Below, piece after piece: positions 6,385 through 10,780 of a DNA stretch of 43,982 nucleotides. The position numbers were made by a program, and so were the translations under genes. Where the stretch lies: NCBI GenBank assembly GCA_004283055.1, contig SHLP01000016.1, forward strand, positions 1-43,982, read 5' to 3'. This DNA comes from Deltaproteobacteria bacterium (GTDB lineage: Bacteria > Myxococcota_A > Polyangia > Polyangiales > Houyiibacteriaceae). Position 1 is the stretch's first letter. Every line of letters starts with the position of its first letter. The notes beneath the pieces are model-generated. The model did no database searches. It was given only the letters and a program-made list of their open reading frames with translations, and was not told the DNA's origin.

Positions 6385-7857
6385 GTGGGCGTGCGGCTCG
6401 GGAATCTATGGGGTTCGCCGTTGGCGATCGTGTCGTTGGGCTTGGCGCTGGCCGGCGTTTGGACGCTTGCCTACGGCGCGTCGACGACGTCGGCCGATAC
6501 CTCTCCGAGGACGCCTGCGGCCATCGGCGAGGCCGGCGCCCTCAGACCGAATCGCTCCGAGGAGCGCATGGGGCCCAAGCTCCTCGAGCCGCCGCCGAGC
6601 GATGCGCTCGGCCTCGACATTGCCATCGAAGACCGAGATGGGAAGTCGATGAAGGCATTGCATCGAGCCCTCGCTCGGGCGGCCGCGGGCGAAGGCCAGG
6701 CCCGGCTTCTGGTCTACGGCGCATCGCACGTCGCCAGCGATCTGTTCACGGGTCACATCCGCCGCGAGCTTCAGACTCGCTACGGTGACGCAGGCCACGG
6801 CTTCGTCCTTCCCGTACACCCTTGGCGCACCTATCGGCATCGGGACATCAACATCGAAAGCGACGGCATGCGCTGGGAGACGCAGCGCATTCGAGTCGGC
6901 GATGCGGAGGTCGAGCGCGTCGGTCTCGCCGGAATCGCGATGATGAGCCGGCGCGCTGGTTCGTTCGGCGCGGTGTACACTGCGAAAGAGGGTGAGTATG
7001 GGCGAACCGCAGGTTTCTTCGAGCTGTACTACAAGCAGCATCCTCGCGGCGGCGACCTCGACGTCTTCATCGACGGCCGCAAGGCACGTCGTATCTCTAC
7101 GCGCGCGAGGAAGGTCTCGCCGGGCTACGCCACTTTTCGTCTCCCCGACGCGGCTCATCGATTCGAGATTCGCACCGTAAGCAAACGGCCTGTATGGGTG
7201 TATGGCCTCGTGGTCGAGCGCGACCAGCCCGGGGTGGTCGTCGATACTCTGGGCATCAACGGCTCGCGGGCGCGCTATCAGCTACTTTGGGACGACGAGG
7301 TGTATCGAGAGCACCTTCAAAGGCGAAAGCCTGACCTCGTCGTGCTGGCCTACGGAACGAACGAAAGCGGCGACGAATCCCCTCTCGAGGACTACGAGCG
7401 TGACTTGCGCGCGGTGCTCGAACGGATGCGCAGCGCGGTGCCGGACGCGTCATGTCTCTTGATCGGTCCGTCGGATCGACCGATGCAAGTGGAAGAACGG
7501 GTGTTTGAAGACCGTGAGCGAACCGCGCGGCTGATCCAGGTACAGCATCGGCTCGCCCTCGAGCAGGGCTGCGGCTTCTTCGACCTCGTGGCCTTCCAAG
7601 GCGGCGCGCTATCGATGGTGCACTGGGCGGCAAATGATCCGGCGTATGCGGCGCAAGATCACATTCACTACACGCGCGTAGGTTATCAGCGCTTGGGGGA
7701 GGTGTTGCTCTCCGCGCTGCTCGAAGGGATGCCTCCGTCCGGCGAGTCAGTCGAGTCTACTGAGTCGAGTGAGTCAGACGCATCGGCCGGCTCCGCGCTT
7801 GGCGTCGAAGGGTCCGTAGATGCGGGCACCGTCGTCGAAGGCGCCTTGGAGAGATAG
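6385..7857 (+). CDS. SGNH-hydrolase-like secreted or anchored protein, copy 1
   Basis: Protein of 490 residues with an N-terminal hydrophobic anchor or signal (about 12-32) and an SGNH-type domain. The nucleophile block reads YGAS (Ser114) rather than GDS, block III is YGTNES (Asn326), and the final dyad is DHIH (425-428), so Ser, Asn and Asp-His are kept while the usual Asp of GDS is Ala. It is clearly paralogous to the gene on the other strand at 7686-9341: both have R(Y/F)GDAGHGFVL and (F)E-QQ/KQ-HPRGG blocks. Likely role is O-acetyl or acyl transfer on a surface polysaccharide with the nearby MBOAT protein. The start is GTG. The C-terminal tail is Ser/Glu-rich and overlaps the convergent gene by 172 bp. 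Confidence 0.75.
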   Translation: MGVRLGNLWGSPLAIVSLGLALAGVWTLAYGASTTSADTSPRTPAAIGEAGALRPNRSEERMGPKLLEPPPSDALGLDIAIEDRDGKSMKALHRALARAAAGEGQARLLVYGASHVASDLFTGHIRRELQTRYGDAGHGFVLPVHPWRTYRHRDINIESDGMRWETQRIRVGDAEVERVGLAGIAMMSRRAGSFGAVYTAKEGEYGRTAGFFELYYKQHPRGGDLDVFIDGRKARRISTRARKVSPGYATFRLPDAAHRFEIRTVSKRPVWVYGLVVERDQPGVVVDTLGINGSRARYQLLWDDEVYREHLQRRKPDLVVLAYGTNESGDESPLEDYERDLRAVLERMRSAVPDASCLLIGPSDRPMQVEERVFEDRERTARLIQVQHRLALEQGCGFFDLVAFQGGALSMVHWAANDPAYAAQDHIHYTRVGYQRLGEVLLSALLEGMPPSGESVESTESSESDASAGSALGVEGSVDAGTVVEGALER

Positions 7858-9341
7858 CGCGCAAAGCCGGCGAGGATGGCTTTGTAAAACATGTTGCCGA
7901 TGATCTCGTAGCCAGCTGGCGTGGCATGGCGGAAGTCGCCCATTGCGAGCCTCGGTCGCGCCTTGTACCAGCGTCGCATCGCATCCTCACCTCCCATCGC
8001 CCGCCAGGTATCGTAGAACGCGCACCCGGAATCGGTCGCGGCCCTCCGCTGTGCCGCGACGATCAGTGGGATGGTGGGTAGCGTGCGAATTCGACCACGG
8101 GTGCGTCGCGCCTGGTCGAGCGGCGCAAAAACCAGGCAAGCGAGGTCTTCACGCCCTTGTCGCATTCGACGCAAGACTTTCATGTAGTCCTCGTAGAACA
8201 TTTGCTCCGTTCGGTCGTCGCTCGCCTCGTTTCCTCCGAAGCCCAAGACGATGAGGTTGGTGCCACGCTGCTCGAGCTGGCGCCGGATGTGCGTCTCGTC
8301 GAAGTTGAGCAATCGATTCGCCCGCGCTCCGACGAGGCCGAGGGAGTCGTAGACCACACCGGGACCATCGCGCTCCATCACCACGCCGTAGAAGCTCACG
8401 GGGCCGCCGCGCTGGTAGCGAAGCTCAATCGAGTGCGGCCCATCGGGAACTTCGATCGAGAAGACGCCATCGCCGGGCAAATCCGCTTTCGTGGATACGA
8501 TTTCGCGGTCCTCGCGGTCGACTCGAACGGAGAACTTTCCTCCGCGCGGCTGCTGCTCGAAGAAGATATCGAAGCGCGACGCCTTTTTCCCGACGGCGCC
8601 CCGCCTAGCCGTGCCGATGCGTGCCCACGAGCCTCGCATGGCCGTCGACTGCACTCCGCCATATCCGTAGCGGCCGTGGCGATCCTGTCGGCGCACGACT
8701 TCGCGTAGCTCCCAGGCTTCGGGATTGGACGATTGCACGACACCCCGATGCTTGTAAGGAATGAACCCTTTTGCCGCGAGAACGAAGCCGTGACCCGCGT
8801 CACCAAAACGCGCCTGCAGGTTCTGACGCACCGTCGACGTGATCAGGTCTGTAGCGATGCTCGAGTCGCCGTAGTGCCCGACGCGGGTGATGGCGCCCTC
8901 ATCGCCGCGCGCAGTCCTCTCCAGGGCCTCGTAAAACGCACGCATGCCCCGCCCGGTCGGGTCCTCGATCTGAACCGATATCCCCGAATACTCGGCGGGC
9001 TCGATCGCGATCTCTTCTTCTGCCGCTCGCGGCGGAGCGATGATCGGCTTGGTTCCTAGGTTTGCGGCTACGGTTTCTCCGACCGCCTCGGCGAGGCGCT
9101 TGGTGCCCGAGCCCTCGCCTGCCGTCGCGCGGTAAGAGCCACCGTGACCGGCGAAGGCGGGGATTTCGCCCCATCGCTTGAACAGCCGGACGATCGGAAC
9201 GTCCTCTTCGCTGGGAATCCAAGGTCTGAGCGATTGGATCGGAGGGATCAAGTACGTCAGCATGCACGCCGCCAACATGAACACGACGACCGTGACTAGG
9301 TGGCGTAGCGGAGTGAGACGTTCTTGGTTTGCTTGGGTCAT
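7686..9341 (-). CDS. SGNH-hydrolase-like anchored protein, copy 2
   Basis: Protein of 551 residues with one N-terminal membrane segment (about 12-33) and a periplasmic SGNH-type domain: GDSS (Ser160), FGGNEAS (Asn371) and DFRH (469-472). This copy keeps the classical GDS. The real start is the ATG at 9341; the frame runs upstream, but those codons lie in the MBOAT gene. Its ATG overlaps the MBOAT stop by one base (TGATG), so the two are translationally coupled and probably act together, as AlgI-type acyltransferases do with AlgX/AlgJ-type SGNH partners. After the fold, a Ser/Asp-rich tail of about 50 residues is encoded antisense to the end of copy 1. Confidence 0.78.
   Translation of the reverse strand: MTQANQERLTPLRHLVTVVVFMLAACMLTYLIPPIQSLRPWIPSEEDVPIVRLFKRWGEIPAFAGHGGSYRATAGEGSGTKRLAEAVGETVAANLGTKPIIAPPRAAEEEIAIEPAEYSGISVQIEDPTGRGMRAFYEALERTARGDEGAITRVGHYGDSSIATDLITSTVRQNLQARFGDAGHGFVLAAKGFIPYKHRGVVQSSNPEAWELREVVRRQDRHGRYGYGGVQSTAMRGSWARIGTARRGAVGKKASRFDIFFEQQPRGGKFSVRVDREDREIVSTKADLPGDGVFSIEVPDGPHSIELRYQRGGPVSFYGVVMERDGPGVVYDSLGLVGARANRLLNFDETHIRRQLEQRGTNLIVLGFGGNEASDDRTEQMFYEDYMKVLRRMRQGREDLACLVFAPLDQARRTRGRIRTLPTIPLIVAAQRRAATDSGCAFYDTWRAMGGEDAMRRWYKARPRLAMGDFRHATPAGYEIIGNMFYKAILAGFARYLSKAPSTTVPASTDPSTPSAEPADASDSLDSVDSTDSPDGGIPSSSAESNTSPKR
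7744..7779. repeat. GAGTC/GACTC-rich repeat read on both strands
   Basis: Tract of repeated GAGTC units with a few substitutions. On the plus strand it is read as GAG-TCN, giving Glu-Ser repeats in copy 1. On the minus strand the same bases are read as GAC-TCN, giving Asp-Ser repeats in copy 2. It lies inside the antisense overlap of the two convergent genes. Confidence 0.75.
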
Positions 9342-10780
9342 CAGAATTGGAAATAGATGTACGGAACGACTTCGCTCGTCGCTACCACGCTCAGCGCGAA
9401 GCCGACCACGGCGAGTGCGATGCCCTGTGCGGGTGCGGGCATCAATTTGAAGCGGAGCTCGATCGATTCGAACCAACGCTTCGGACTGTAGTGGGCCAGA
9501 AAAGTCACGATCAGCATCGCCCAGACGCCGAGCGAGATCTGGGCGACTGAGAAGGTCCCCGACCCGAGCCGGGCGGTCACGTCCGCGGCGTTCTGCAGGC
9601 TCGTCGCCCTGAAGAGAATGCGTGAAAAAACGACGAACTGCAGAGCCCAAAACACTTTGAAAGCATGAACCTGCCAGCTGTCGACGGTGTCGCGGCTGCG
9701 GCCGGACCGTCTGTAGAAGAATCGGTGAACCACCATCGCCATCGACTGGAGGATTGCGTAGAACACGAAGGTCCAAGATGCGCCGTGCCAGATGCCGATC
9801 AGAAACATGGTGAGCCAGAGGTTCCAGTAGGCGCGGATTGGACCGCCACGGGAGCCGCCCAACGGGAAGTAGAGGTAGTCACGGAGCCAAGTGGAGAGCG
9901 TCATGTGCCAACGGCGCCAGAACTCCGCGGGGCTCGCGGACTGGTAGGGGCGGTCGAAGTTTCTCGGAAGCTCGAGCCCCATCAGTTTCGCCGAGCCGCG
10001 CGCGACGTCGGTGTAGCCAGAGAAGTCGCAGTAGATCTGCATCGTGAAACCGTAGAGCGCGATCACGACCTCGGCCCCGCTGTACAGCTCCGGCTGATCA
10101 AAAATTCGGTCGACCAAGTTGACCGAGAGGTAGTCGGCGATGGCGACCTTTTTGACCATTCCCGTTGCGATGAGGAAGAGCCCCTGCGTGACCTGATCAT
10201 CCCGAAGCGTGATTTTGCGCTGTAGTTGAGGCAGCAGCTGTGAAGCACGGACGATGGGCCCGGCGACCAGCTGGGGGAAGTACGTCACGAAGAAAGCGAA
10301 CTGGAAGAAGTTGCGGGTCGGCTCGAGCTTGCCTCGGTAGATGTCGATCGTGTAGCTGAGCGTCTGAAACGTATAGAAGGAGATGCCTACCGGGAGCAGA
10401 ACGTCGAGGAATGGCGGGTCTGGGATCTCGATGCCGAAAAAGAGCGCCAGCACGTCCGCGGTCGCCTGCGAGGCGAAGTTGAAATACTTGAAAAGCCCGA
10501 GGAGCCCGAGGTTGGAAACCAGGCTGACGATGAGCCAGCGCTTTCGGCCCCTCTGGCTTTCCGTGGCGTGGATCCGAAGGCCAACGAAGTAGTCGATGAC
10601 CGTTGAACCGAGGATCAGAACGATATAGGCGGGGTGCCATGCCATGTAGAAGAGGCATGACGCCACGAAGATGAAGATGATCCGCAGCTGGGCATGGCGA
10701 GCTAGTAGCCAGAACCCCGTGACGGCAATGCCCAGGAAGAGAATGTAGTCGAGGCTATTGAAGAGCACGGGTCCCCTCAC
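9341..10780 (-). CDS. MBOAT family O-acyltransferase (AlgI-like)
   Basis: Polytopic inner-membrane acyltransferase of 479 residues that should move acyl groups (usually acetyl) across the membrane for polysaccharide or lipid modification. Family signatures are GISFYTFQTLSYTID, MQIYCDFSGYTDVARG, FWRRWHMTLSTWLRDYLY and the conserved-histidine motif GIWHGASW. About ten or more hydrophobic segments are visible and the length is usual for AlgI. It begins with GTG at 10780; an in-frame GTG at 10768 would give the more typical N-terminus LFNSLDY. It overlaps the downstream SGNH gene by one base. The polymer modified is unknown. Confidence 0.92.
   Translation of the reverse strand: MRGPVLFNSLDYILFLGIAVTGFWLLARHAQLRIIFIFVASCLFYMAWHPAYIVLILGSTVIDYFVGLRIHATESQRGRKRWLIVSLVSNLGLLGLFKYFNFASQATADVLALFFGIEIPDPPFLDVLLPVGISFYTFQTLSYTIDIYRGKLEPTRNFFQFAFFVTYFPQLVAGPIVRASQLLPQLQRKITLRDDQVTQGLFLIATGMVKKVAIADYLSVNLVDRIFDQPELYSGAEVVIALYGFTMQIYCDFSGYTDVARGSAKLMGLELPRNFDRPYQSASPAEFWRRWHMTLSTWLRDYLYFPLGGSRGGPIRAYWNLWLTMFLIGIWHGASWTFVFYAILQSMAMVVHRFFYRRSGRSRDTVDSWQVHAFKVFWALQFVVFSRILFRATSLQNAADVTARLGSGTFSVAQISLGVWAMLIVTFLAHYSPKRWFESIELRFKLMPAPAQGIALAVVGFALSVVATSEVVPYIYFQF

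Follow-up and report, generated by a model that had tools for sequence, protein, structure and literature searches.

A long convergent overlap between two paralogous SGNH genes, conserved across a bacterial genus

In the window, the 43,982-nt stretch of DNA analysed here (contig 267 in an assembly of 4.3 Mb and 293 contigs, from uncultured myxobacteria-like bacteria with Myxococcales MAGs, including SG8_38, as nearest named relatives), two paralogous genes for SGNH proteins, P and M, converge, and their 3' ends share exactly 172 bp. We observed directly the overlap itself, its phase, its conservation, the change of its length in threes, the mapping that the genetic code imposes on it and the positions of its stop codons. 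These observations are probably best explained by a conserved mutual read-through that followed the loss of both stop codons, the two tails being tolerated linkers. An earlier note on this DNA had already placed the overlap at its exact coordinates (7686-7857). The features considered are as follows.

6385..7857, + strand: gene P, SGNH hydrolase with an N-terminal membrane anchor and a predicted Ape1-like fold, 490 aa (ORF)
7675..7719 (codons), + strand: last SGNH helix of P, residues 431-445, mostly inside the overlap (AF2 secondary structure)
7686..7857, both strands: convergent coding overlap, 172 bp, phase 123:213 (codon-by-codon reading)
7688-7686 and 7685-7683, - strand: tandem stops of M, TGA followed by an in-frame TAA, antisense of the P Gln435 and Tyr434 codons
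7744..7775, both strands: GAGTC-type 9-bp imperfect tandem repeat, 3.6 copies (TRF period 9, score 34, weak)
7855-7857, + strand: stop of P, TAG, antisense of the M Tyr496 codon (7856-7854) plus the preceding base
7686..9341, - strand: gene M, paralogous SGNH protein with an N-terminal anchor and a predicted Ape1-like fold, 551 aa (ORF, start at 9341)
9341..10780, - strand: MBOAT O-acyltransferase (PatA/DltB type), in one operon with M (PF03062, E=7e-26)

The two SGNH genes and their surroundings

Both proteins match PF13472 (E=2e-18 for P and E=7e-10 for M) and contain complete SGNH domains, in which the Ser, Asn and Asp-x-x-His positions are invariant (35-36 sequences). At the nucleophile, residues 112-115 of P read Gly-Ala-Ser-His in place of the usual Gly-Asp-Ser, a substitution that is invariant in 36 sequences, and M retains the Gly-Asp-Ser motif. 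P and M are ~33% identical and form two separate clades that span the order. From this tree, the duplication that produced them is judged to be ancient and to predate the overlap, which is younger. The convergent duplication proposed in the earlier note was rejected as a recent event, because P and M belong to separate old clades.

Comparison of the predicted structures with Foldseek returned Ape1 (4k3u) as the best match for the AF2 model of P (E=2.6e-25, TMt 0.83) and the same structure for that of M (E=1.8e-22, TMt 0.85), and both models also matched 8gkd/8gld. Furthermore, both matched CBM35/CBM6 modules, pointing to an SGNH fold with an inserted CBM35-like domain, and sequence profiles linked P and M to Ape1 with E=7e-39 and 5e-23, respectively. 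The cores of P and M thus resemble Ape1 peptidoglycan O-acetylesterases in profile and predicted fold, and both proteins are predicted to be anchored on the periplasmic side.

In genus members, the MBOAT gene immediately precedes M, and the same holds for nearly every locus of the family and order that has sufficient flanking sequence. In the window, the two genes meet in a TGATG stop/start junction, and M likely starts at the ATG that overlaps the MBOAT stop (9341) rather than at the first start of the ORF (9776). The MBOAT protein scored 165 bits against TIGR04091 (DltB), below the equivalog cutoff of 375 bits. Together, MBOAT (9341-10780), M and P have the look of a locus for O-acetylation of peptidoglycan or of a polysaccharide. 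The closest known gene order is that of the patA-patB-ape1 loci of Neisseria and Campylobacter (PMC6174289), in which an MBOAT gene likewise stands directly ahead of one SGNH gene and another SGNH gene adjoins; here, however, the second SGNH gene is convergent instead of lying downstream on the same strand, and both SGNH proteins appear Ape1-like, the best PDB matches of the M model being Ape1 and not a transferase.

Geometry and conservation of the overlap

In phase 123:213 (notation of PMC2174442), the first codon position of P lies opposite the second of M and the second opposite the first, so that the third positions pair wobble on wobble. The TAG of P faces a Tyr codon of M in all 16 genus genomes; the residue itself, Tyr496 in the window, is Tyr in 16/16 genus members and Trp, His or Phe elsewhere. 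Conversely, the stop of M is located opposite P Tyr434-Gln435 in 15 of the 16 genomes and is a TGA in 13 of them. Where Arg replaces Gln435 (G004 and G007), the stop of M falls on the Tyr codon and is TAG or TAA, and where Glu follows the Tyr of P (GYE, in G001), M continues to the His of the DHIH motif of P, its tail being 7 codons longer. P Tyr434 is invariant in 36 sequences, and the residue after it is Gln (GYQ) in most genus members and Glu in many relatives. The Gln codon creates the TGA stop of M. Both genes therefore end only at stops supplied by core codons of the partner.

The earlier note had placed both tails beyond the conserved block, free to diverge. The tails do diverge strongly, but helix 431-445 is conserved in the alignment of P and lies largely within the overlap; the overlapping part of P is thus not wholly free tail. 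The last ~16 residues of M are the antisense of this conserved C-terminal core of P, namely its helix stretch. Terminators and promoters were looked for in the overlap and none was found, and an Rfam search of the window returned zero matches.

All 16 same-genus genomes with P and M on one contig carry the overlap, at 100-172 bp and in identical phase, with M proteins 71-87% identical to that of the window; comparison of these orthologous loci, as the note had proposed, revealed no genus member in which one frame stops before the overlap. On the tree, the free tail underwent at least 10 changes of length, all of them multiples of 3. Repeat-length changes hit both tails, always in threes, and the earlier suggestion that slippage would alter both proteins at once was borne out. 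One further locus (L062, G014:C1), from a single-contig genus member that is 66% complete, has a P that matches only partly before the open frame diverges, perhaps owing to a frameshift from read errors.

As a background for convergent overlaps, we used 400 kb of one sister genome (G016). Among the ~60 convergent pairs called there, the P/M overlap was the longest at 130 bp, followed by a doubtful one of 60 bp and another of 43 bp. A second genus of the family also has the overlap, in phase 123:213 and with lengths of 148 bp (G024) and 127 bp (G031), where it encodes Ala-Pro-Ser facing Gly-Asp-Ala with a repeat unlike that of the window. In G024 (L044:3232-3320), the two strands of a 15-bp repeat encode Gly-Asp-Ala and Ala-Pro-Ser, P being the Pro-rich strand, as it is in G031. 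The concatenated core tree did not place this genus as sister to the window's genus, and a single origin was recovered in 4% of 200 bootstraps, so that the overlap probably arose there independently. In outgroup loci with convergent P and M, the gene ends lie 25-174 bp apart (G041, G042, G048, G021 and G053), and G047 has an overlap of 38 bp in a phase that differs from 123:213. In other family members, P and M are in tandem (G022 and G030), kilobases apart (G023 and G025) or on separate contigs. On these sequence comparisons, we consider the overlap genuine, unusually long and genus-wide, beyond what chance would give.

Long convergent overlaps in other prokaryotes (PMC2174442; PMC2478687) likewise involve stop loss and genes that read into each other, and loss of stop codons fits the general phase statistics of convergent overlaps (PMC2174442). 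However, most reported cases are kept only in very close species, whereas the P/M overlap is kept across a genus. Moreover, unlike typical convergent overlaps, it is longer than any other in the 400 kb of the sister genome, and its phase is the rarest for convergent overlaps of at least 5 nt (18%; PMC2174442; PMC2478687).

Code mapping and selection on the tails

Read codon by codon, the tail of P is Glu/Ser-rich and that of M Ser/Asp-rich, just as the earlier note had described. The GAGTC-type tract indeed reads GAG-TCN (Glu-Ser) on the + strand and GAC-TC(N) (Asp-Ser) on the - strand, with the TRF repeat spanning 7744-7775 (7744-7779 in the note). A shorter version of this repeat is present in the near relative G005, and most other relatives lack it.

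In phase 123:213, antisense codons pair as TCN/GAN (Ser with Asp or Glu), CCN/GGN (Pro/Gly), ACN/GTN (Thr/Val) and GCN/GCN (Ala/Ala). A random Glu/Asp-Ser repeat gave 100% Ser, Asp and Glu in antisense in this phase only; the codon-on-codon phase gave Arg, Val, Ile, Leu, Phe and Gly plus stops, and the third phase a mixed set. Because TCN and GAN are mutually antisense in phase 123:213, the pairing of Glu-Ser with Asp-Ser is forced by the code and requires no extra coincidence. Co-evolution inferred from this match alone was accordingly rejected. In simulations that combined the amino acids of M with random synonymous codons, the P frame was always open and its composition near that observed. 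A leading frame was sought through the Pro/Gly and Thr/Val asymmetries and gave no clear answer in the window's genus, in which M has Pro at 0.110 versus Gly at 0.113 and Thr at 0.062 versus Val at 0.024.

When 18 tails from relatives lacking this overlap were translated in that antisense phase, stops occurred at 0.0036 per codon and 16 of the 18 were fully open; these tails are also as low-complexity in antisense as the overlapping ones. Stop-free frames were therefore rejected as proof of dual coding: non-overlapping tails are equally open. On the same grounds, the co-evolved antisense tails invoked in the earlier note are not needed to account for the locus.

In the free overlap, sister genomes (six pairs) differed by 0.19 per codon at positions 1 and 2 and by 0.37 at position 3, slower positions 1 and 2 being a result favoured by alignment on the P protein; in the cores (eight pairs), the corresponding values were 0.05-0.08 and 0.34-0.37. 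Such rates suggest that the free overlap is constrained weakly at most. M-twofold wobble sites opposite the P helix had a transversion share of 0.69, versus 0.66 at fourfold sites, indicating no constraint there. Within the free overlap, P-twofold sites had a share of 0.31-0.40 versus 0.55-0.63, a signal from 7-9 independent changes that is not significant. In 7 clade representatives, AGY serine codons, each of which places Leu in the partner frame, make up 13% of serine codons in the M tail (p=0.008) and 6% in the P tail (p=0.003), compared with 30% in the cores; against the N-terminal linkers of the P and M proteins, the depletion had p=0.18 and 0.05. This hints that both tails avoid Leu and that selection may keep both frames polar. 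Both tails are predicted to be disordered, with AF2 pLDDT below 50 at residues 502-513 and 519-551 of M and 461-490 of P, and the cores are modelled confidently.

Competing explanations and significance

The overlap might be ascribed to an assembly or annotation artefact, in which a sequencing error or an overlooked stop lengthens one frame, and precedent is on the side of such caution: of 178 convergent overlaps longer than 60 bp in 338 genomes, 124 were 3'-end extensions and 54 possibly real, making most long overlaps in that survey misannotations (PMC2478687). Yet the matching overlap, phase and stop positions in 16 separate genus genomes and in a second genus refute this explanation, to which we assign hardly any probability. 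We also regard as improbable a coupling at the RNA level, whereby complementary mRNA 3' ends or polymerase collision would link the MBOAT-M operon to P in the manner of an excludon or a convergent switch. The analogy draws on comparable regulation in other systems (PMC7154746, PMC3134472), on the genus-wide overlap with neither a spacer nor a terminator-like site within it, and on the related proteins encoded, with an acyltransferase adjoining. In excludons and noncontiguous operons (PMC7154746), too, functionally related genes converge and would have complementary 3' ends, although in the present case the coding sequences themselves overlap. Against such coupling, the sequence and length of the tails vary freely and only multiples of three are kept, as expected for a reading frame rather than an RNA, and other family members have P and M in tandem, kilobases apart or on separate contigs.

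True dual coding, in which both acidic-Ser tails are functional (for example in wall binding or spacing) and both frames are under purifying selection at once, is somewhat less improbable than RNA coupling but still unlikely. The rarity of AGY serine codons in both frames, the fewer transversions at P-twofold sites and the fact that neither frame gained a stop in 16 genomes are all compatible with it; however, the wobble signal falls short of significance, the AGY depletion is weak relative to N-terminal linkers, the tails diverge strongly in sequence and length, and antisense openness comes nearly free in phase 123:213. Slightly more credible, though still doubtful, is a broader version, in which the overlap would be a maintained dual-coding device: the self-mirroring code would keep the tails of both O-acetylation enzymes disordered and acidic, and core codons of the partner, at or beside a Tyr codon, would serve as stops, so that the two lengths are locked and change jointly.

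We favour conserved mutual read-through. The ancestral state would have been two old convergent paralogous SGNH genes with a short spacer that carried both stops, and the genus ancestor would have lost this spacer, probably by one deletion. Each gene would then read into the antisense of its partner until it met a stop built into the partner's core: a TAY (Tyr) codon after a pyrimidine-ending codon always yields a stop in phase-123:213 antisense, and a Gln codon after T yields TGA. Between the cores lies a low-complexity stretch, predicted to be disordered, whose linker alphabet (Ala, Ser, Pro, Gly, Asp, Glu, Thr and Val) is largely self-mapping in the wobble-on-wobble phase; an acidic-Ser disordered tail on one strand gives the same kind on the other, with stops hardly ever arising. 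Because the alphabet is largely self-mapping, repeat slippage in threes resizes both tails and leaves both frames intact. The tails would be tolerated linkers, not a tuned pair. Counted against this reading are the avoidance of AGY codons, the slower positions 1 and 2 in the free overlap and the fact that none of the close relatives has escaped the overlap, although one mutation to a stop would be enough to cut either tail short.

Convergent overlaps that are both long and conserved are seldom seen and frequently put down to error. The 16 aligned orthologues, together with a second, probably independent case in the same family, provide a usable test set for two-frame selection. For matching low-complexity proteins on opposite strands, a code-mapping null should be applied before co-evolution is claimed. 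Acidic-Ser or Ala/Pro/Gly tails are a natural site for such overlaps, since in the wobble-on-wobble phase their linker alphabet is largely self-mapping and almost never generates stops.
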